DNA from: Terriglobales bacterium
GTDB lineage: Bacteria; Acidobacteriota; Terriglobia; Terriglobales; Gp1-AA117
DNA: 10,349 nucleotides
Assembly (NCBI GenBank): GCA_030150795.1
Contig: JASLFF010000271.1
Location: forward strand, 1-10,349
Direction of reading: 5' to 3'
Of this stretch, positions 1,868 through 10,265 are shown one piece after another. Each line of letters begins with the position of its first letter. The first letter of the stretch is position 1. A program made the position numbers and the translations under genes. The notes under the pieces are model-generated. The model ran no database searches and was not told where the DNA came from. It was given only the letters and a program-made list of their open reading frames with translations.

Positions 1868-2263
1868 TTGGGACACAACTGCGACAAAGAAACCATTCTT
1901 GTGGTGGATGACGAAGAGTCTCTACGCACCGTCGTCGTGGATCTGCTCGGCCATCTGGGGTATTGCACGCTTTCCGCGGCCAACGGCCCTGCAGCCATGG
2001 AATTGGCGGAGGGGTATCCCGGCAAAATTGACCTGCTGCTGACGGACGTGGTGATGCATCCGCTTCCCGGCCCGGTACTGGCTGAAAAACTGATGCGCTC
2101 ACGGCCGGAGATGAAAGTGATCTTTATCTCGGGTTATGCCAACCCATCGCTGGCGCCGGATGGCGTTTTGAAGCCCGATACCGTGCTGGTGCACAAGCCC
2201 TTTACCATGAAGATCCTTTCCGCCAAGCTGCGTGAAGTGCTGGGAGATCCCCCAAAAGGCTAA
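1868..2263 (+). CDS. Orphan single-domain response regulator (CheY-like receiver)
   Basis: 131-residue stand-alone receiver domain. Acidic pocket residues are Asp14, Asp15 and Glu16 (VVDDEE), the phospho-acceptor is Asp60 (LLLTDVVM), the switch Ser is Ser88 (FISGYA) and the conserved Lys is Lys110 (HKPF), so it should be phosphorylatable. No DNA-binding or enzymatic output domain follows. The start is a TTG. It is the only usable initiation codon between an in-frame TAG at 1829-1831 and the acidic motif, and its ribosome binding site is weak (GAG at 1859-1861). In style (LLLTDVVM, VIFISGYA, HKPFT) the domain closely resembles the C-terminal receivers of PAS-type hybrid histidine kinases, so it may descend from one that lost its kinase part. 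Partner kinase unknown; the two kinases downstream on the opposite strand are candidates by proximity only. Confidence 0.82.
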   Translation: MGHNCDKETILVVDDEESLRTVVVDLLGHLGYCTLSAANGPAAMELAEGYPGKIDLLLTDVVMHPLPGPVLAEKLMRSRPEMKVIFISGYANPSLAPDGVLKPDTVLVHKPFTMKILSAKLREVLGDPPKG

Positions 2264-2716: not shown

Positions 2717-4207
2717 TCAACGTTCATTGAGCAATTCCTGCGGCGTTACCTTTTCTGCCCTGGATTTGTATTCGCCCGGCGCACCATTTGGCAGGAAGAC
2801 CCTGAAGCAGGTTCCAGCGCCGCCGGTGGCGCGTCGTGATCGAAAACGCAAAGTGCCGCGATGTTTTATTACCAAGCTGTTGGCCAGCCATAGTCCCAGC
2901 CCGGTGCCTTTGAGCTCTTTGGTGGTAAAGAACGGTTCCAGCACCCGGTTGCGCAGCTCTTTTGGTATGCCCGGCCCTTGATCATGAATGGTAAAAACCA
3001 CGCCTGGAACGCCGTGCGAGCTGTCTTTGCGGAGACGGATGGAAAGGCAGCCGTGTTCGGGTGAGGCGTCAATGGCGTTGCCGATCAGGTTGGCAAAAAC
3101 CTGGCGCAGTTCGCCGGGAAACCCGTGGATGCAAAACGCCGGGCCTTTTTTGAAATCGACTGTTATGTGCTTGGTTTCCATCTGCACCACGTACAACGCC
3201 AGAACGGATTGCACCATGTCCTGAAAATCCAGTTCCACGGCGATCTTGGTTTCACGATGGAACGAGAGAATCTGCTTCGTGATCTTGGCTACACGGTCCA
3301 GCTCTCTGGTCGCCTGTTTCAAAAATTCCTGGATTTGCTGCTGGTCAGCCGTATGCATGGCAAGATAAATCAGGTTGGTCAAGGCTTCCAGGGGGTTATT
3401 GATTTCATGAGCGATGGTTTGGGCCAGCCTGCCGGTGGCCGCCAGTTTTTCCGTGTGGCGCAGGGTTTCTTCCGCCAGCTTGCGCTCGGTAATGTTGGTC
3501 AAGACCACGATGGAGCCAAAACGCTGCTCGCCGCTCATCACCGGATCGGCTGTAATCAGAAACCAGTTTTGTCCCTGCTGCCGCTCAGCTACATACCGGG
3601 AAGTGTCAGGAAAGGTGAGAAAATCCGCGTTGCCCAGCACTTGGGTCAGTATGGTCACTGCATCCTGTCCAATAACTTCGCTGAAGGACCTGCCGCTCAA
3701 CGCCGCAAAGGCCCGATTGCAGCGTACAACTTTGTTTTCTGTATCCAGCAGCACCAGGTATTCCGGCAGGGCGTCCACCGTGGATTGCCATTCCTGGGCG
3801 GATTGCCGCGAAATCAATTCCACCTGCTTGAGGCGCAGGAGAGATTTTACGGTCGCCACCAGCACAGTGGCATCAATGGGATGCGTAAGATATCCGTCGG
3901 CTCCGCCCTCAAGCGCCTGGGCCTTGCTCTCATTGCTCACGAATGACGCGGAGATTTGCAGCACCGGTACTGAGCGTGTAGCTGGATCACTCTTGATGCG
4001 ACGGCAAACTTCATAGCCCGAAATGTCAGGCAGCTTCACATCAAGAATCACCAGGTCCGGACAAGATCTCACTCGTTCCAGCGCGTCTTTGCCGGTGGTA
4101 GACTGCTCCACTTCCAGGCCTGCGCGCGCCAGGATGCGCGAAAGCACGTAGCGGTTTTGCTCCGTGTCGTCCACCAGCAGGATTCGTGATGTTTTGCGCG
4201 CTGTCAT
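2717..4207 (-). CDS. Sensor histidine kinase, REC-PAS-HisKA-HATPase
   Basis: 496-residue soluble histidine kinase with no transmembrane segment. Order: N-terminal receiver, residues about 6-125 (Asp18/Asp19 pocket, phospho-acceptor Asp56 in VILDVKLP); PAS domain about 140-247 ending in the usual DxT-like join (LTNITERK); dimerisation/phospho-acceptor helix with His267 in IAHEINNP; catalytic ATPase domain with N-box Asn377 (LIGNAIDAS), G1 box DQGPGI (409-414), F-box EPFFTT and G2 box GTGLGL (434-439). The kinase core is intact. In the receiver the conserved Lys before Pro is His109 (YLTHPID), a change I recognise from related N-terminal receivers. The gene starts 6 bp after the preceding hybrid kinase stop, so it is the last gene of the operon. 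The architecture suggests it receives phosphate or allosteric input on its receiver, possibly from the upstream hybrid kinase or the stand-alone receiver, and passes signal to an unlinked regulator. Confidence 0.9.
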   Translation of the reverse strand: MTARKTSRILLVDDTEQNRYVLSRILARAGLEVEQSTTGKDALERVRSCPDLVILDVKLPDISGYEVCRRIKSDPATRSVPVLQISASFVSNESKAQALEGGADGYLTHPIDATVLVATVKSLLRLKQVELISRQSAQEWQSTVDALPEYLVLLDTENKVVRCNRAFAALSGRSFSEVIGQDAVTILTQVLGNADFLTFPDTSRYVAERQQGQNWFLITADPVMSGEQRFGSIVVLTNITERKLAEETLRHTEKLAATGRLAQTIAHEINNPLEALTNLIYLAMHTADQQQIQEFLKQATRELDRVAKITKQILSFHRETKIAVELDFQDMVQSVLALYVVQMETKHITVDFKKGPAFCIHGFPGELRQVFANLIGNAIDASPEHGCLSIRLRKDSSHGVPGVVFTIHDQGPGIPKELRNRVLEPFFTTKELKGTGLGLWLANSLVIKHRGTLRFRSRRATGGAGTCFRVFLPNGAPGEYKSRAEKVTPQELLNER

Positions 4208-4213
4208 CGCCGG

Positions 4214-6361
4214 CTATTTTTCTTCTGGTCCCGCAATGTCCATCTTGGCCAGTGAGCTCAACAACGATTCAGGAGAGAGTGAAGTGGTTACGTCACTCTT
4301 GGCGATCAGTCCAGCGGCCAGGTCGGTCAACCGCTTCTTCTCTTCGCCCGTCAGCAATTTTGACGTGTACACAATCACCGGCAGGCGGCGTGTCTGTTCC
4401 TGGTCACGTAGCTTCTGCAAAACTTCAAAGCCGCCCATCCCAGGCATTACCAGGTCAAGGATCACGGCATCCGGCTGCTCGCGATCGATGATGTCCAGCG
4501 CTTCCTGTCCATTATGCGCTTCCATCAGGTTCAGCCAGGGACGGTCGAGCAACTCGCGCAGGATATACAAGGACAAATCGTTGTCGTCCACCAGCAGAAG
4601 CTTCTTTGGTTTTTCCTGCCGGGTAACGCGGCGAACGTCCTGCAATAAGCTTGCGGCATCAAGCGGCTTGCTCACGGCCAAAGCAGCACCCAGATCCAGG
4701 GCTTTTGTGGAATCCTCTGGCGCAGTGATGGCCACAATCGGAATTTGCTCGCCTGGCTCCCCCGGTTTTGGGAAAAACCGGAGAAAATCCCATGCCGGAT
4801 TCTCAATCTCCTGTATATCCAGTACCACTGCGCGGGGCTGGTGGCGTTCCAGCCATGTCTCTGCGCGCTCCACGCTTTGCATATGAATCAACTGAAATTC
4901 TGACGTCTTAAAAACAGAATCGATTAAGGAAAATGTCTGCGCCTCTGGTGCGATCAATAACACCGTGGGTCGTGAAAACTCCGGCGCCGGCATCTCTTCG
5001 CGCGATCCGGCCACGTCAGCTTCACCTTTATAGACGACCGGCAGTTCCACAAAGAAGCTCGATCCGCGCCCTAATTCGCTGGTCACCCATACTTTGCCAC
5101 CCAGCAGCAAGGCCATTTTTCTGCACAGCGGCAGCCCCAGTCCGGTACCGCGATAGCGCTCCTGCAATGGATTTTCTATTTGAGAAAATTCCTGAAACAC
5201 CGTCTCCAGGTGTTCCGGCGGAATGCCAATTCCTGTGTCCGTAACTTCAAACAGCACTGAGCCGCTGCCGCGCATCTCGGCGGAAATCTTTATTTCGCCC
5301 TGCGGCGTAAATTTAATTGCGTTGGAAATAAAGTTTCTCAGTATCTGTGAGACCTTGCCTTCATCTGTCCGCATAGGCGGCAGATTTGCGCCCTCTATAA
5401 AAACCAGGTCCACGGAAGTGTTGTCCGCCAGCAGCGGTTTCAGCATGCCCTTCAGAGCGCTGAACAGCTCCATCACCTCAAACGTCTTCACCCTGATCCG
5501 GACTTTTCCTGCTTCCACCTTGGCCAGATCGAGCAAGTCATTCACCATCTCGGATAATGTCTTCGCCGACTCCAGGATGAATCCCACCTGGGTTTCCTGA
5601 TCGCCTGTCAGGTCTCCATCCAGCCGGTCCAGCAGTATCCGCGCAAGAGACATAATGGAGTTCAGAGGCGTGCGGAACTCATGCGATATGTTGGAAAGAA
5701 AACTGGTCTTCAAGTCTGATGCGCGCCGCAAATAATCCGCTCGCTCATCCAGTTCCGCATACAGCGCAACCACGCCGCGGTTTGTGTCTTCCAGTTCGCG
5801 ATTCAGCAACGCCAGCTCTTCCTGCCGGGCGCGCAGTTCCTGCAATGTCTTCAGCAACTCGCGGTTTTGCCGGTCGATTTCCTCGTATGGGCTTTCCGGC
5901 GTCTTGCTATTGATCTTGTCATTCACGTCCTTCAGCCGCACAGGCGTAAGCAGCGGAGCGGAAAACGGCAGGTCTTTGCCCATCTTCACCACGGTTCCGG
6001 AAGGGTTGCTGATGATTTCGAAGTTGTCCATCAGCCGCTTGGTGCCTATAATGCCAAGGCCCATCCCTGTCTGGGAGCGATAACGGCCTTCAAGAATTTC
6101 ATTCAGATTATCGATTCCCGGGCCGGTATCTGAAACCGTGATCACCAGTATCTGCGTCCGTCCGGTATCCACTTCAAAACTTACTTTTCCGCCACGAGCA
6201 TAGCGATAGGCATTCCGCGCCATCTCTGAAGTTGCGGTGGCCAGCCGGATTTGCTCCTGATTGTCAAAGCCCAGTAGCGCGGCAATTTCTCGCGCTCGCT
6301 GGCGGGCCTGGACCACGTCGCGTTCATTCCGTAATGTAATGATGGAAAGCCGGTCGCTCAT
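4214..6361 (-). CDS. Hybrid histidine kinase with N-terminal RsbT-like ATPase domain and two receivers
   Basis: 715 residues, cytosolic. Residues 1-135 form an RsbT/anti-sigma-type GHKL ATPase: SEMARN with Glu46 and Asn50, DTGPGI at 78-83, and TGMGLG lid at 98-103, closely paralleling the stand-alone RsbT in this operon. A coiled-coil linker (about 160-215, heptad-like Leu/Glu/Arg) leads to a standard kinase core: His227 in SNISHEFRTPLNS, Asn347, DTGIGI at 375-380 and GTGLGL at 405-410. Two receivers follow. The first (about 465-580) keeps Asp515 and Lys565, but its acidic pocket reads LLIAPEA instead of the usual Asp-Asp, so it is probably poorly phosphorylated. The second (about 595-712) has VDDND, Asp636, a Thr in VYTSK and Lys688, and looks functional. 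It lies 19 bp downstream of the RsbX-like gene. The fusion suggests that an RsbT-type switch input controls a phosphorelay; that is inference. Confidence 0.9.
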   Translation of the reverse strand: MSDRLSIITLRNERDVVQARQRAREIAALLGFDNQEQIRLATATSEMARNAYRYARGGKVSFEVDTGRTQILVITVSDTGPGIDNLNEILEGRYRSQTGMGLGIIGTKRLMDNFEIISNPSGTVVKMGKDLPFSAPLLTPVRLKDVNDKINSKTPESPYEEIDRQNRELLKTLQELRARQEELALLNRELEDTNRGVVALYAELDERADYLRRASDLKTSFLSNISHEFRTPLNSIMSLARILLDRLDGDLTGDQETQVGFILESAKTLSEMVNDLLDLAKVEAGKVRIRVKTFEVMELFSALKGMLKPLLADNTSVDLVFIEGANLPPMRTDEGKVSQILRNFISNAIKFTPQGEIKISAEMRGSGSVLFEVTDTGIGIPPEHLETVFQEFSQIENPLQERYRGTGLGLPLCRKMALLLGGKVWVTSELGRGSSFFVELPVVYKGEADVAGSREEMPAPEFSRPTVLLIAPEAQTFSLIDSVFKTSEFQLIHMQSVERAETWLERHQPRAVVLDIQEIENPAWDFLRFFPKPGEPGEQIPIVAITAPEDSTKALDLGAALAVSKPLDAASLLQDVRRVTRQEKPKKLLLVDDNDLSLYILRELLDRPWLNLMEAHNGQEALDIIDREQPDAVILDLVMPGMGGFEVLQKLRDQEQTRRLPVIVYTSKLLTGEEKKRLTDLAAGLIAKSDVTTSLSPESLLSSLAKMDIAGPEEK

Positions 6362-6380
6362 CAGGTTTCACTCGATCAAA

Positions 6381-7391
6381 CTAGACTGATGCTGCTCCCC
6401 TCAGCACCAACACGCTGGCATCGTCGCGCTCCCTGCGGAAATCGCGTAACAAAACACCGGCAATCAGCGCCGGCTGCCGCGCCAGCAGGCCCGGATACCG
6501 CGAAAGGTCCCAGCGCGACTGCAACCCGTCAGAATGCATCACCAGAACGCCATCCTTAGGCCATTCAACTTTGAACTCCTGCACTCTCGCCATCACGTGT
6601 CCTAGCGTGCCATTGTGTGAAACCAGGCTGCGGCTCAGCGTATGACTTAGGATGCTCCCTGAGATGTTGCCGACGCCGGCATACGTCAATGTTCCTGCCA
6701 GCGTGCGCACTTCCGCGATGGCCGCTGCCGCGCCCCGGGTTTTCTTTAGTGCGTCGTGCAAGCGCGAGATCAAGCTTGCCGGGGATTCGCTGCTATGTGC
6801 GCGGAACACCCGTACCGCTTCATCCGCTGCGTCCGCTGCTTGCATGCCGTGGCCTAGCCCATCAGCCATCAGCACTATGCACCTGTCGCCATTGATTTCC
6901 CAGGCCAGGTTGTCGCCGGAAACCTTCTCACCGGCGAGCGGGGAGACCAGCCCGGCAAGCTCTACTGAGGATTTGCGCGAGTGCGCCCCATCTTCCTGCT
7001 GCTCTATGCGGGCGAAAACGGCTGTGCCTTTTGTGCTGGAAAATACGTCAAAGACCTCCGCCATGCGCCTGATCGCGCCCAGTCCGGTCCCAGGAGTGCC
7101 GCCGGTCGAGTATCCATCCTGCAGCGCGCGTGACAGATCAGCGATACCCGGCCCACGGTCCAGGGCCACGATATCCATTCTTGTTTCGTTCTTGGATTTG
7201 ATGCCTGAAAGCAGCAGCTGCCCACCGCCGCCATAGACCACCGCATTTCGTGCAGCTTCAGTGATCACAATTGCCGTTTCACCTGATTTTGTTTCACTCA
7301 GGCCAAGCAAGGCGGCCATGCGCGCGCCGGCGCGCCGGGCTTCAGCCGTGGAACTGAAATCGGACAACGAGACCGTTTGAGAGAGAAACAT
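6381..7391 (-). CDS. RsbX-like PP2C/SpoIIE phosphatase with N-terminal RsbT-like ATPase domain
   Basis: 336 residues. Residues 1-135 are a GHKL ATPase of RsbT/anti-sigma type: TEAARN with Glu45 and Asn49, DRGPGI at 78-83, GTGLG at 101-105. Residues about 145-335 are a SpoIIE/PP2C-type serine phosphatase with metal-binding aspartates in SGDN (Asp160), MADGLGHG (Asp177), HSDGL (Asp288) and RDDAS (Asp323/Asp324). By position after rsbT and by the compact catalytic domain, it should be the RsbX equivalent that dephosphorylates RsbR and RsbS and resets the stressosome. Bacillus RsbX is only about 200 residues and lacks the ATPase part. Its ATG overlaps the rsbT stop by one base (TAATG), implying translational coupling. 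Alternative: an RsbU-like activator phosphatase, but I see no RsbU-type N-terminal RsbT-binding domain. Proteins of this ATPase-phosphatase layout are known in other bacteria. Confidence 0.88.
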   Translation of the reverse strand: MFLSQTVSLSDFSSTAEARRAGARMAALLGLSETKSGETAIVITEAARNAVVYGGGGQLLLSGIKSKNETRMDIVALDRGPGIADLSRALQDGYSTGGTPGTGLGAIRRMAEVFDVFSSTKGTAVFARIEQQEDGAHSRKSSVELAGLVSPLAGEKVSGDNLAWEINGDRCIVLMADGLGHGMQAADAADEAVRVFRAHSSESPASLISRLHDALKKTRGAAAAIAEVRTLAGTLTYAGVGNISGSILSHTLSRSLVSHNGTLGHVMARVQEFKVEWPKDGVLVMHSDGLQSRWDLSRYPGLLARQPALIAGVLLRDFRRERDDASVLVLRGAASV

Positions 7392-7795
7392 TATTTCCAG
7401 CGGACCACGGTAACGCGCGTCCCTTTACCCGGCTCTGATTCAATATGAAAGTCGTTGACGAGTCTTTTGCTCCCGCCCAATCCCAGTCCCATGCCTCCAC
7501 CGGTCGTGAAACCATCCCGTAAGGCGGCATCCACGTCGCTTATTCCAGGGCCGCGGTCTTCAAACACCAGCTTCAAACCGCTCTTGATGGAGTTCTCTAC
7601 CTGCTCGATCATCATGTGGCCGCCCTTGCCGTGTTCCAGGGCGTTGCGTGCCAGTTCGCTCGCGGCGGTCACCAGTTTGGTCTGGTCCACCAGCGTGAAC
7701 TTCATTTCAATGGCCCATTGCCGCACCTTCTGTCTTGCCACCACCACGTCGGAGGAAGTGGCAATTGGCACGGTCTCCTGCTTTGCAGATCTCAT
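7391..7795 (-). CDS. rsbT: RsbT-type serine/threonine kinase (stressosome switch kinase)
   Basis: 134 residues, essentially the same length as Bacillus RsbT. A single GHKL ATPase domain carries SELARN (Glu47, Asn51), DRGPGISD (from Asp80) and the glycine-rich lid GGGMGLGLGG at about 99-108. In the characterised system RsbT phosphorylates Ser/Thr in the STAS domains of RsbR and RsbS, is released from the stressosome, and then activates a downstream partner. The usual partner RsbU is absent from this window, so the target here is uncertain; the neighbouring hybrid kinase is a candidate. The ATG overlaps the rsbS stop in an ATGA, and the rsbT stop overlaps the next ATG. A GGAG lies about 8 nt before the start. 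Confidence 0.93.
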   Translation of the reverse strand: MRSAKQETVPIATSSDVVVARQKVRQWAIEMKFTLVDQTKLVTAASELARNALEHGKGGHMMIEQVENSIKSGLKLVFEDRGPGISDVDAALRDGFTTGGGMGLGLGGSKRLVNDFHIESEPGKGTRVTVVRWK

Positions 7796-8172
7796 CCACC
7801 CAGCTCCGAATGGAAATCTCCGCGCAGTTCGTACAGCAGTTCCATTCCCGTTTCCACGTTCAGCGCGGTACGCACTCCGCTCAGTGACATGCCAAGCTCA
7901 ACCAAAGTGATGGCCACCGCCGGCTGCATTCCCACTACCACGGTTTCGGCGTCCAGCACTCGCGCCATTGCCGCAATGTTCGCCAGCATTCTGCCGATGA
8001 ATGAATCAACGATTTCCAGCGTTGAAATATCGATCAAGACCCCGCGGGAACTCCACTCGGAAATTTTTTCCGTCAGATCGTCCTGCAACTGCACCGCCAG
8101 CCGGTCATGCATGTCCACCTGGATTGTGACCAGCAGGAATTGCCCCATGCGCAGGATTGGAATGCGTTCCAT
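7792..8172 (-). CDS. rsbS: RsbS stressosome scaffold STAS protein
   Basis: 126-residue single STAS domain. Seen: the family opening IPILRMGQFLLVTIQVDM, then LIDISTLEIVDSFIGR with Ser57 at the position of the RsbT-phosphorylated serine of Bacillus RsbS (Ser59), and GMQPAVAITLVELG. RsbS and RsbR together form the pseudo-icosahedral stressosome core, which holds RsbT until both are phosphorylated. The gene starts directly on the base after the rsbR stop (TAA then ATG). Its Shine-Dalgarno GGGAGGAG (8176-8183) lies within the last rsbR codons. The stop overlaps the rsbT start. Confidence 0.94.
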   Translation of the reverse strand: MERIPILRMGQFLLVTIQVDMHDRLAVQLQDDLTEKISEWSSRGVLIDISTLEIVDSFIGRMLANIAAMARVLDAETVVVGMQPAVAITLVELGMSLSGVRTALNVETGMELLYELRGDFHSELGG

Positions 8173-9060
8173 TTACTCCTCCCGCCTGAGAAGCGTCTTT
8201 TTGCTGCTGTTGTTGTCGCCGTTGACTTTTGTCACCATCTGGCCGGTGCGCTGCAGGGCCAGGGCAAATGCGTCGGACAACTTTGCTTTCGTAATTACGC
8301 CGGCCAGGTCAATGCCCAGGTGCACGATGGTTTGCGCAATCTGCGGACGCACGCCGCTGATGATGCAGTCCGCGCCCATGAGGCGTGCAGCTGTAATCGT
8401 TTTCAGGAGATGCTGCGCCACCAGCGTGTCCACCGTGGGAACGCCCGTGATGTCGATGATCGCGACCCGCGAGTTCGTTTGCACCACAGCTTGCAGCAAT
8501 GACTCCATCACCACCTGGGTCCGCGCGCTGTCCAGCGTGCCGATGATCGGCAGCGCCAGGATTCCTTCCCACAGCTTGACGACGGGCGTGGACAACTCCA
8601 TTAATTCTTCTTGCTGCCGCGCGATGAACTTCTCGCGCGTCGACTGGAATGCGTCGGCCGTGATTAGCGCCAGCTTATCTACCAGCAGAGTTGTTTTCCA
8701 TATGTCATCAAACAGACCCGCTGGATCGGAAGCGTTCTCTCGGCGCACGGCATTAAATATCGGCTGTTTTAATGAAAGGACAAAAGTCGCCGTTTCGCTG
8801 GTGGAGAAACCCTGCTTGGCCCGCGACGCGGAGATGGCGCTCAGGGTGTCTCGTGCCTGTCCCCAGGCTGGCCCATCGAGGTTGGCAAGGTCTCCGGACT
8901 TTACGCCAGCGGTAATAGCGCTCATTAATTCGCGCGATTGGGCATCGAGTTCCTCATCGCTCATCAGATCGGCGCGGCGCACGGAGGAGTTCATTTGCTT
9001 CAGCCAGTCTTGTCGTATCTCCTCCTGGTGCTTGTTGATCATCTCAGGCAATTTGCTCAT
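8173..9060 (-). CDS. rsbR: RsbR-type stressosome sensor (RsbRD-like N-terminal domain plus STAS)
   Basis: 295 residues. The N-terminal part, about 1-155, is all-helical and of the RsbRD_N type (EEIRQDWLKQM near the start, AKQGFSTSETATFVLSLKQP at 91-110), not obviously the globin fold of RsbRA. The STAS domain, about 163-280, reads ELSTPVVKLWEGILALPIIGTLD, then IIDITGVPTVDTLVAQHLL and GVRPQIAQTIVHLGIDL. Thr212 (VDTLVA) aligns with the Bacillus phosphosite Thr205. Spacing of 34 residues places Ser178 (GTLDSAR) at the Thr171 equivalent. A charged, Ser/Lys-rich tail follows (281-295). Role: senses a stress signal through the N-terminal domain and forms the stressosome with RsbS. It has a strong Shine-Dalgarno, GGAGG, 5 nt before the ATG, and is the first gene of the tightly coupled block. 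The signal sensed cannot be told from sequence. Confidence 0.92.
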   Translation of the reverse strand: MSKLPEMINKHQEEIRQDWLKQMNSSVRRADLMSDEELDAQSRELMSAITAGVKSGDLANLDGPAWGQARDTLSAISASRAKQGFSTSETATFVLSLKQPIFNAVRRENASDPAGLFDDIWKTTLLVDKLALITADAFQSTREKFIARQQEELMELSTPVVKLWEGILALPIIGTLDSARTQVVMESLLQAVVQTNSRVAIIDITGVPTVDTLVAQHLLKTITAARLMGADCIISGVRPQIAQTIVHLGIDLAGVITKAKLSDAFALALQRTGQMVTKVNGDNNSSKKTLLRREE

Positions 9061-9218: not shown

Positions 9219-9620
9219 TTAGGCCTGTGCTGGATCGGAATCCGGCACAAAAGTCTTCAGGGCTGCTTCCAGTTCTTTGGGGCCCGCCCACTTGGGGACC
9301 ACATGCTCTACCCCAAAAAACTGGCATAGCTTCTTTTCCGTATCACCCATTACCGTCCACACAACCACGTGGATCTTGTGGAGCTTTTCCGTGGACTTCC
9401 AGTACCGCAATACTTCGAATCCGCTCTCTCTGGGGAAGGAAAGATCCAGCAGGATCAAGTCCGGCGCCGGCTTGGTTCCTTCCACCACGTCCTGCAAAAA
9501 CAGGATGGCTGCTGCAATGTTGTTCAGCGCGATAACGTCCTGTGCCCCCAGCTTCTTCACTACTGCCGTGGACTGCCGCACATCTGCCGGCGTATCTTCA
9601 ACGATCAAAACTCGACGCAT
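9219..9620 (-). CDS. Stand-alone response regulator (Rcp1/CheY-like receiver)
   Basis: 133-residue receiver domain without output domain. Acidic pocket Glu8/Asp9 (LIVEDTPAD), phospho-acceptor Asp59 (LILLDLSFP), switch Thr89 (VVWTVMG) and conserved Lys110 (VPKWAGP) are all present. LDLSFPRESGFEVL and the VED start place it with the Rcp1-like receivers that usually act as phosphate shuttles for histidine kinases. It lies upstream of rsbR on the same strand with a 158-bp gap, so co-transcription with the stressosome operon is plausible but not shown. It may be the phospho-acceptor for one of the two kinases encoded downstream. The ATG at 9620 begins directly with the beta-1 strand MRRVLIVED; the ribosome site is weak. 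Confidence 0.88.
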   Translation of the reverse strand: MRRVLIVEDTPADVRQSTAVVKKLGAQDVIALNNIAAAILFLQDVVEGTKPAPDLILLDLSFPRESGFEVLRYWKSTEKLHKIHVVVWTVMGDTEKKLCQFFGVEHVVPKWAGPKELEAALKTFVPDSDPAQA

Positions 9621-9940: not shown

Positions 9941-10216
9941 ATGCTCGCAAAATGCGCCAACCCATCCTGTTCTACTCCGCTGGTTTATTTGCGTGAAGGC
10001 AAGATCTTTATGGTTGAATCTCAGCAGCAGCCACGGGTTGAGTTGGTGAGCGCAGCCCCAACCAAACGTAAACCCGCCAGTCGTGTGGAGCATTTCTGGC
10101 TCTGCGGTCCATGCTCCGGCGAAATGACCCTCACCTATGATCGCCAGCGCGGCGTAGAGATCGTTCGAAAAGCAGTTGGCAAAGCGCTCCTGACGCGGCG
10201 CGCTGCCGCATCCTGA
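9941..10216 (+). CDS. Small protein with two Cys pairs, possible zinc-binding, function unknown
   Basis: 91 residues. The ATG is preceded by a good Shine-Dalgarno AAGGAG (9929-9934) at 6 nt. Cys5 and Cys10 (CANPSC) and Cys55 and Cys58 (CGPC) make a C-x4-C and C-x2-C arrangement, with His51 just before the second pair. This could bind one zinc ion, with the middle segment (Leu/Tyr/Gly-rich start, polar 27-50) between the two halves. The C-terminus is basic (RKAVGKALLTRR), which would suit nucleic-acid contact. I have an impression of similar short proteins in Acidobacteriota but no functional assignment. It is followed directly by a strong terminator and so is probably monocistronic. Confidence 0.75.
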   Translation: MLAKCANPSCSTPLVYLREGKIFMVESQQQPRVELVSAAPTKRKPASRVEHFWLCGPCSGEMTLTYDRQRGVEIVRKAVGKALLTRRAAAS

Positions 10217-10238: not shown

Positions 10239-10265
10239 ACCCGCCTTGCGGCGGGTCATTTTTTT
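10239..10265 (+). terminator. Rho-independent terminator of the Cys-pair gene
   Basis: Perfect 7-bp GC-rich stem ACCCGCC (10239-10245) / GGCGGGT (10250-10256) with a TTGC tetraloop, then CA and seven Ts (10259-10265). It lies 23 bp after the stop at 10216. It works in the plus direction; in the minus direction no U run follows the stem. Confidence 0.88.

Follow-up and report, generated by a model that had tools for sequence, protein, structure and literature searches.

A stressosome operon of a Terriglobales bacterium in which an RsbT-like domain is fused to a histidine kinase

Introduction

It is an open question how, in bacteria that have no SigB, stressosomes communicate with two-component systems. 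The question is raised here by a stretch of 10,349 nucleotides from a soil bacterium of the Terriglobales (GenBank assembly GCA_030150795.1, contig JASLFF010000271.1), referred to at its full length as the window, in which rsbR-, rsbS-, rsbT- and rsbX-like genes are followed by genes for two histidine kinases. A first-pass annotation, made from the sequence alone, had proposed that these kinases replace the SigB output arm. The analysis reported here revealed that the first of them, a protein of 715 residues, carries an N-terminal RsbT-like domain and a conserved linker helix. On the best reading of these sequences, the client of the stressosome module would be the histidine kinase itself.

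Results

The phosphatase and the 715-residue kinase carry RsbT-like domains

Six closely packed open reading frames (ORFs) were found on the minus strand between positions 9060 and 2717, at the place and on the strand given by the annotation, and Pfam backed the assignment of each: the rsbRSTX-like genes, the 715-residue kinase and a second kinase, HK2. From rsbR to HK2, the gene junctions measure 0, -4, -1, 19 and 6 bases, a spacing as in one transcription unit. RsbR (sensor and STAS), the STAS protein RsbS and the kinase RsbT stand in the order of a stressosome module. The phosphoserine motif DSF of RsbS was invariant in the aligned RsbS proteins (7/7); among the aligned RsbR proteins, IAQT was present in 6/6 and VDT in 5/6, with IDS in the remaining one, and the RsbR of the window keeps both. 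From Bacillus, we take DSF in RsbS and VDT and IAQT in RsbR to be the phosphosites. The window RsbT, whose sequence retains the catalytic residues, shares 44% identity with Listeria RsbT across 134 aligned columns.

An N-terminal RsbT-like domain (T domain), overlooked in the annotation, was recognised by Pfam on both the RsbX-like phosphatase (T:X) and the 715-residue kinase (T:HK). The T domain of the kinase has the SpoIIAB/RsbW-type fold, with N-box and G-boxes, and the N-box Asn was kept in 26/28 kinase T domains. In a tree built by a quick method on 133 columns, with a single long-branched RsbW row as outgroup and weak inner forks, the 21 rows of kinase T domains, among them those of a T:GGDEF protein and of the HisKA_2-type kinase of genome G456, formed one clade on the RsbT side, with a support of 99 in the Shimodaira-Hasegawa-like approximate likelihood ratio test. 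By its sequence, the N-terminal domain of the kinase appears to group with RsbT rather than with RsbW. This domain was folded and searched separately, since kinase cores, with ShkA as the best match, fill the fold search with the model of the whole kinase. When solved structures were searched by sequence, the kinase T domain gave no match and RsbT matched SpoIIAB only.

Behind the T domain, the residues of a hybrid kinase are intact: H227 in HisKA, and D592/D593, D636 and K668 in the second receiver (residues 586-700), with HATPase_c recognised by Pfam. In the first receiver (about 463-575), the acidic pair is missing and the Asp varies among homologues; by our reading of the sequence, this receiver is probably a pseudo-receiver. 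The first receiver of ShkA is a pseudo-receiver, and the likeness of the two proteins lies in the order of kinase core, degenerate receiver and true receiver. Apart from the T domain, no sensor domain was recognised by Pfam in the 715-residue kinase, and RsbU_N was absent from both window kinases in the same scan. The four receivers counted in the annotation were recovered (two in the 715-residue kinase, the first of them degenerate, one in HK2 and one in the gene upstream of rsbR), together with a fifth, convergent one on the plus strand (Table 1).

Table 1. Coordinates of the operon, the linker helix and the flanking receivers in the window.
Feature	Position	Strand	Content	Basis
RsbR	8173..9060	-	RsbRD_N sensor domain, residues 4-105; STAS, 162-251	Pfam; alignment with Listeria RsbR
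RsbS	7792..8172	-	One STAS domain	Pfam; alignment
RsbT, free switch kinase	7391..7795	-	HATPase_c/HATPase_c_2	Pfam
T:X fusion	6381..7391	-	RsbT-like domain, residues 1-130 (Pfam 14-126); SpoIIE/PP2C phosphatase, 168-331; RsbX position	
T:HK fusion, 715 residues	4214..6361	-	RsbT-like domain, residues 1-131 (Pfam 14-128); linker helix; HisKA; HATPase_c, 333-442; two receivers	
Linker helix of T:HK, residues 159-219	5705..5887	-	QNRELL half and ELEDTNRGVVALYAELD half	
HK2, 496 residues	2717..4207	-	Receiver-PAS-HisKA (H267)-HATPase_c; final gene of the block	Pfam
Stand-alone receiver	9219..9620	-	158 bp upstream of rsbR	Pfam
Stand-alone receiver	1868..2263	+	Convergent, downstream of the operon	Pfam

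A conserved linker helix joins the T domain to the kinase core

In the predicted model of the window kinase, residues 158-244 form a single helix that runs from the linker through H227. The highly conserved helix ELEDTNRGVVALYAELD leads from the side of the T domain into the phosphoacceptor helix of the kinase. Whereas the QNRELL half of the linker tracks the T domain, being present in 25/30 fused proteins and in 0/10 kinases devoid of this domain (T-less kinases), the ELEDTNRGVVALYAELD half tracks the HisKA kinases of these operons. The Fisher values for the linker counts, as for those of the ATP-lid residue discussed below, take related sequences as independent. T193, N194 and G196 were invariant in 39 aligned rows, T-fused and T-less both, and the T-N-x-G motif was kept in 10/10 T-less HisKA kinases and 26/30 fused proteins, the exceptions being a GGDEF protein, two HisKA_2-type kinases and a Paraburkholderia kinase. 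Our heptad assignment would place T193 in the core of the linker helix. In RsbU, according to the available part of PMC12143880, the polar residue Q94 at the linker interface helps keep the protein switchable, and the linker change Q94L is reported to bypass RsbT.

A 57-residue profile of the linker found matches (E <= 1e-6) in 8/247 Acidobacteriota and 17/398 Pseudomonadota genomes (25/645), and each of the 25 matches falls in the gene that comes after RsbT and T:X. The 17 matches in Pseudomonadota comprise 9 T-fused and 8 T-less kinases at the equal gene position; as these loci were picked by the profile, they indicate a lack of matches to the motif elsewhere and give no frequency for it among all stressosome kinases.

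The block is conserved in at least three phyla

Comparison of gene order upheld the association of the kinases with the module: the block is conserved in relatives, and kinases lie beside rsbRST in Acidobacteriota, Deinococcota and Pseudomonadota. Because the same block recurs in other phyla, the gene order lies far beyond chance. The order RsbR-RsbS-RsbT-T:X-T:output was found in Acidobacteria (loci L001-L003 and L005), Hyphomicrobium (L004), the megaplasmid MP1 of Deinococcus radiodurans and Deinococcus sp. KNUC1210 (L008, L011), Caballeronia (L009) and Sphingomonas (L010). On the Paraburkholderia plasmid pBN1 (L012), RsbS, a short RsbT, T:X and T:HK were present and no RsbR ORF was found; with its short RsbT and a kinase split over two frames, this module looks broken. 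In the search for kinase homologues, whose closest named members belong to Candidatus Angelobacter and other Acidobacteria, precomputed Pfam domains placed the fusion in 119 of the best 120 of 7,996 homologues, the remaining one being a shortened protein without it.

In genome surveys in which the number of first-look candidates scored in each genome was limited, many genomes being fragmentary, a fused output was detected in 8/247 Acidobacteriota genomes drawn and in 5/240 genomes from the class to which the Hyphomicrobium locus belongs, and every one of these 8 and 5 lay directly behind RsbT and T:X. Altogether, 30 fused loci were examined, and in them the fused output protein stands behind RsbT and the fused phosphatase. 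HK2 or another receiver-kinase is the next gene in most; it is not next in Sphingomonas, G246, G346, G627 and G619, and the contig ends in G456 and G429. In G236 (L105:3014-4579), the minus strand encodes rsbR and the front of rsbS, and the plus strand the rest of rsbS and the later genes, so that either an inversion has cut rsbS or the assembly is wrong at this point; the genome was kept in the counts of 25 and 30, as its RsbT, T:X and T:HK are in line. The fusion is real, widespread and specific.

Of the two flanking receivers, the upstream one had a close match at the equal place only in L001-L003, and the convergent one was conserved in L001 and L002, the contig of L003 stopping earlier. 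Either could take the final step in a phosphorelay.

An archaeal arrangement was also seen on a Halanaeroarchaeum plasmid (L013), where an RsbR-like PAS-STAS protein, RsbS, RsbT and X are followed by a large PAS protein.

The T domain is found on outputs of several families

Behind the T domain and linker, the outputs are mostly HisKA kinases of the window type. A HisKA_2/HWE kinase occupies this place in G346 and, by a profile of our own, in G456, and the Sphingomonas output is a kinase whose phosphoacceptor motif looks NtrB-like by eye. In G246 (L107:4366-5496; L022; P0121, P0122), the output joined to the RsbT-like domain is a GGDEF diguanylate cyclase (149 bits); two close homologues of this fusion were among 120 listed, one of them named Terriglobus albidus. 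In the tree of kinase cores, which has many open forks and long branches to the outgroup, the T-less kinases were nested among the fused ones. This nesting fits loss of the T domain, which by these sequences looks ancestral.

A further module type was observed in G134, G169, G109 and G008 (L083, L098-L100), with the RsbT domain on the phosphatase and no free RsbT seen; in 3/4 of these modules, the next gene encodes a weak, degenerate N-terminal T-like stretch.

The SigB arm was not found, and RsbU_N was found with another module type

RsbU, RsbV, RsbW and sigma factors, which the annotation had reported missing, were indeed not detected among the nine window proteins scanned with Pfam, a set outside which the 594-residue ORF at 12-1796 lies; relatives were searched by family for RsbU_N and SigBFG only. 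RsbU_N (PF08673) was found in 0/19 genomes carrying the T:X/T:output module type (0/5 and 0/14), several of which are fragmentary. As controls for this search, four genomes with single-domain X, chosen since their loci showed RsbU_N, were positive, and B. subtilis was the sole match among 14 control genomes. SigBFG (TIGR02980) scored above its cut-off in 0/12 related genomes, all 12 of which hold sigma-70 members below it. In these relatives, the searches did not bring up the unlinked RsbU set that the annotation had envisaged as a contrary case, and output through a SigB chain is disfavoured by the lack of such matches.

Acidobacteria also hold another module type, in which RsbT is nearer to Listeria RsbT and the phosphatase has a single domain. 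RsbU_N was present on the next protein in 10/11 such modules (G220, G097, G100, G071, G024, G174, G206, G193, G124 and G142; that of G124, at 23.7 bits, was counted although under the Pfam cut-off of 25.5), the exception being G247, where an RsbW-like gene comes next. The 11 modules are those acidobacterial loci in which RsbR, RsbS, RsbT and a single-domain X were present and the next gene could be read; left out were G182 and G133 (contig ends), lone RsbT-like matches in G024, G193 and G130, and G134, G169, G109 and G008, in which T is fused to X and the next gene is without RsbU_N by our profile. The RsbT genes of G213 and G158 likewise have RsbU_N on the next gene; their neighbourhood showed no RsbR, RsbS or X. 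Most of the RsbU_N next-gene proteins are histidine kinases; that of G213 ends with the contig after its PAS domains.

Other features of the window

The Rfam scan of the window gave no match at gathering scores. Promoter and terminator scans of the window gave no clear signal (4 promoters found against a shuffled mean of 4.8; 17 terminators against 12.1, standard deviation 4.0). The 594-residue ORF on the minus strand carries FNGGPG and GESYG motifs and is probably a serine carboxypeptidase. On the plus strand, a 91-residue ORF (9941-10216) has paired Cys motifs without a Pfam match and is followed by a terminator-like hairpin at 10239-10256.

Discussion

A fused switch domain as the putative route from stressosome to kinase

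The proposal that the kinases replace the SigB output arm stood in its outline, as no linked SigB arm was seen and the kinases are conserved. It had left out that the kinase also has an RsbT-like domain fused to it and a linker specific to its family, and the likely mechanism therefore shifts from an unspecified link to a cis-fused one. Judging from sequence, we lean towards direct control of the kinase by the stressosome through the fused domain, in cis, replacing the contact in trans between RsbT and RsbU_N. In resting cells, the RsbR-RsbS core would hold the T domains of kinase and phosphatase, as it would free RsbT. Upon stress, RsbT would phosphorylate RsbS and RsbR and the fused T domains would be released; a shift of the T domain against the linker, with polar T193-N194 and G196 mid-helix, could then switch the kinase, which would phosphorylate H227 and then D636, the phosphate passing to HK2 and/or the free receivers, while the T:X phosphatase would reset the core. 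The T domain may thus be a handle held by the RsbR-RsbS core, and the linker may translate its release, or an encounter with RsbT, into altered kinase activity. With the switch domain joined to the kinase in cis, RsbU_N, the adaptor that usually binds RsbT, would be unneeded. That RsbS and RsbR are phosphorylated in a manner dependent on RsbT, that release occurs and that RsbX resets the core is known in Bacillus from the available portion of PMC9237108, and we infer by analogy that this cycle may carry over to the present operon.

Several observations weigh against control in cis. Ten HisKA kinases at the same gene position (8 from Pseudomonadota, and those of G130 and G433) have no T domain, nor has the GGDEF protein of G435 at the equal position, so the T domain is not indispensable, and the linker could instead be the target of free RsbT, in trans. 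In G130, a second RsbT and T:X pair (L094) has no adjoining kinase or cyclase of these families; a near-identical RsbT match was also noted at another place in that genome. The N-box Asn is lost in two kinase T domains, those of Caballeronia (L009:6719-8743) and G429 (L111:2659-3328), which look as if binding alone mattered there. The ATP-lid residue D94 of Listeria RsbT (LmT), which by numbering we take to be B. subtilis D92, is D in 43/56 RsbT but in 1/28 kinase T domains, and the surfaces used by the two may differ. The meaning of this residue is blurred, as it is also lost in 8/15 RsbT of the RsbU_N group, a finding that weakens it as a strict RsbU contact. Finally, the model of the full kinase has a predicted template modelling score (pTM) of 0.38, too low to give domain packing.

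Part of this evidence is what a trans-acting RsbT would lead one to expect. Free RsbT might bind the kinase linker as it does RsbU, or phosphorylate T193, leaving the fused T domain as an auxiliary regulator or dimer partner, and the invariance of T193, N194 and G196 and the persistence of T-N-x-G in every T-less kinase speak for it. We nevertheless regard it as unlikely: T-less kinases are nested among fused ones, with the ancestral-looking T domain and the open forks and long outgroup branches already described; the QNRELL half goes with the T domain, as for a contact in cis; and the T domain is also kept on GGDEF and HisKA_2 outputs without the TNRG motif. Signal flow in the reverse direction, with the kinase T domain phosphorylating RsbR or RsbS so that a two-component signal enters the stressosome, would draw on the N-box Asn, whose retention suggests that most fused T domains may be active Ser/Thr kinases. 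This appears improbable, since Pfam recognises no sensor in the kinase besides the T domain, the place of the kinase behind RsbX matches that of the outputs of other modules, and a diguanylate cyclase, an output enzyme, holds that position in a relative.

Least credible, and in our estimate highly improbable, is an unlinked RsbU-RsbV-RsbW-sigma chain as the true output, with the kinases as mere neighbours. The genome searches cover relatives and not the source organism, and sigma-70 members below the SigBFG cut-off in 12/12 relatives leave it some room; against it stand the lack of RsbU_N in 19/19 and of SigBFG above cut-off in all 12 relatives, as well as kinases fixed in place across three phyla.

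Control in cis, if correct, may be an instance of something more general. It is plausible, if somewhat less likely than not, that T domain and linker form an old plug-in adaptor for stressosome clients, made of one RsbT clade that ceased to diffuse freely and was built into the output protein. Through swaps of the part that follows it, this adaptor would have brought kinases of several families and a cyclase directly under the stressosome in at least three phyla, a cis counterpart of the RsbT-RsbU_N contact in trans, in which the TNxG helix reads the state of the stressosome and the T-less kinases are trans-acting derivatives. An RsbT switch domain physically fused to a kinase offers a concrete, testable route for control of two-component systems, and suggests how stressosomes could do without the usual helper proteins when they steer other signalling pathways. 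The split between T fusion (cis) and RsbU_N (trans) inside one phylum provides a natural comparison of how such a hub is rewired.

Comparison with known systems

Stressosome-linked kinases are already known. No description of a kinase or cyclase that bears a fused RsbT domain was found in the literature covered; the reviews of Pane-Farre (2005, 2017), outside that coverage, may describe it. Within these bounds, the RsbT-kinase fusion seems new. With the RsbRST-RsbUVW-SigB system of Bacillus and Listeria, the window shares the order of RsbR, RsbS and RsbT, the phosphosite motifs and an RsbX-like phosphatase; it differs in that no RsbU, RsbV, RsbW or SigB was seen, and in that phosphatase and output bear RsbT-like domains.

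RsbRST modules beside two-component genes, which the first-pass annotation had called a known theme, are indeed in print (PMC9237108, PMC10014275). In the portions available of these two papers, the Vibrio-type RSTX modules (VvD1-VvD2) resemble the window in having RSTX followed by kinase genes without SigB, but their RsbX has a single domain and no RsbT-like domain is described on the kinase, whereas X and kinase of the window have one each. Heinz et al. report that VvRsbT and VvD1 gave no positive interaction and that most outputs are without RsbU_N (PMC9237108, same portion). Moorella MtG and proteobacterial RsbU_N kinases and cyclases, as far as the accessible text of PMC12143880 goes, share with the window a stressosome output to a histidine kinase or GGDEF protein through a coiled-coil linker. 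There, an RsbU_N adaptor is bound by free RsbT in trans; in the window, an RsbT-like domain is itself part of the output protein, in cis, and Pfam detected no RsbU_N.

A further parallel is the MP1 locus of D. radiodurans, which has the same six-gene block as the window; rsbS is DR_RS15575 there, free rsbT DR_RS15580 and the T:HK gene DR_RS15590. Its kinases DR_B0028 and DR_B0029, which from their position we infer to be DR_RS15590 and DR_RS15595, are thought to be co-regulated with an operon for antisigma-factor regulation, and DR_B0028 was named a candidate regulator of the response to vacuum (both from the available part of PMC6501615, the former citing Makarova 2001). That part of the paper mentions no RsbT domain for these kinases; the window kinase has one. 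With the same block present on MP1, the question of how the stressosome controls its kinase is therefore open to genetic testing in D. radiodurans, a non-pathogenic organism of the laboratory.

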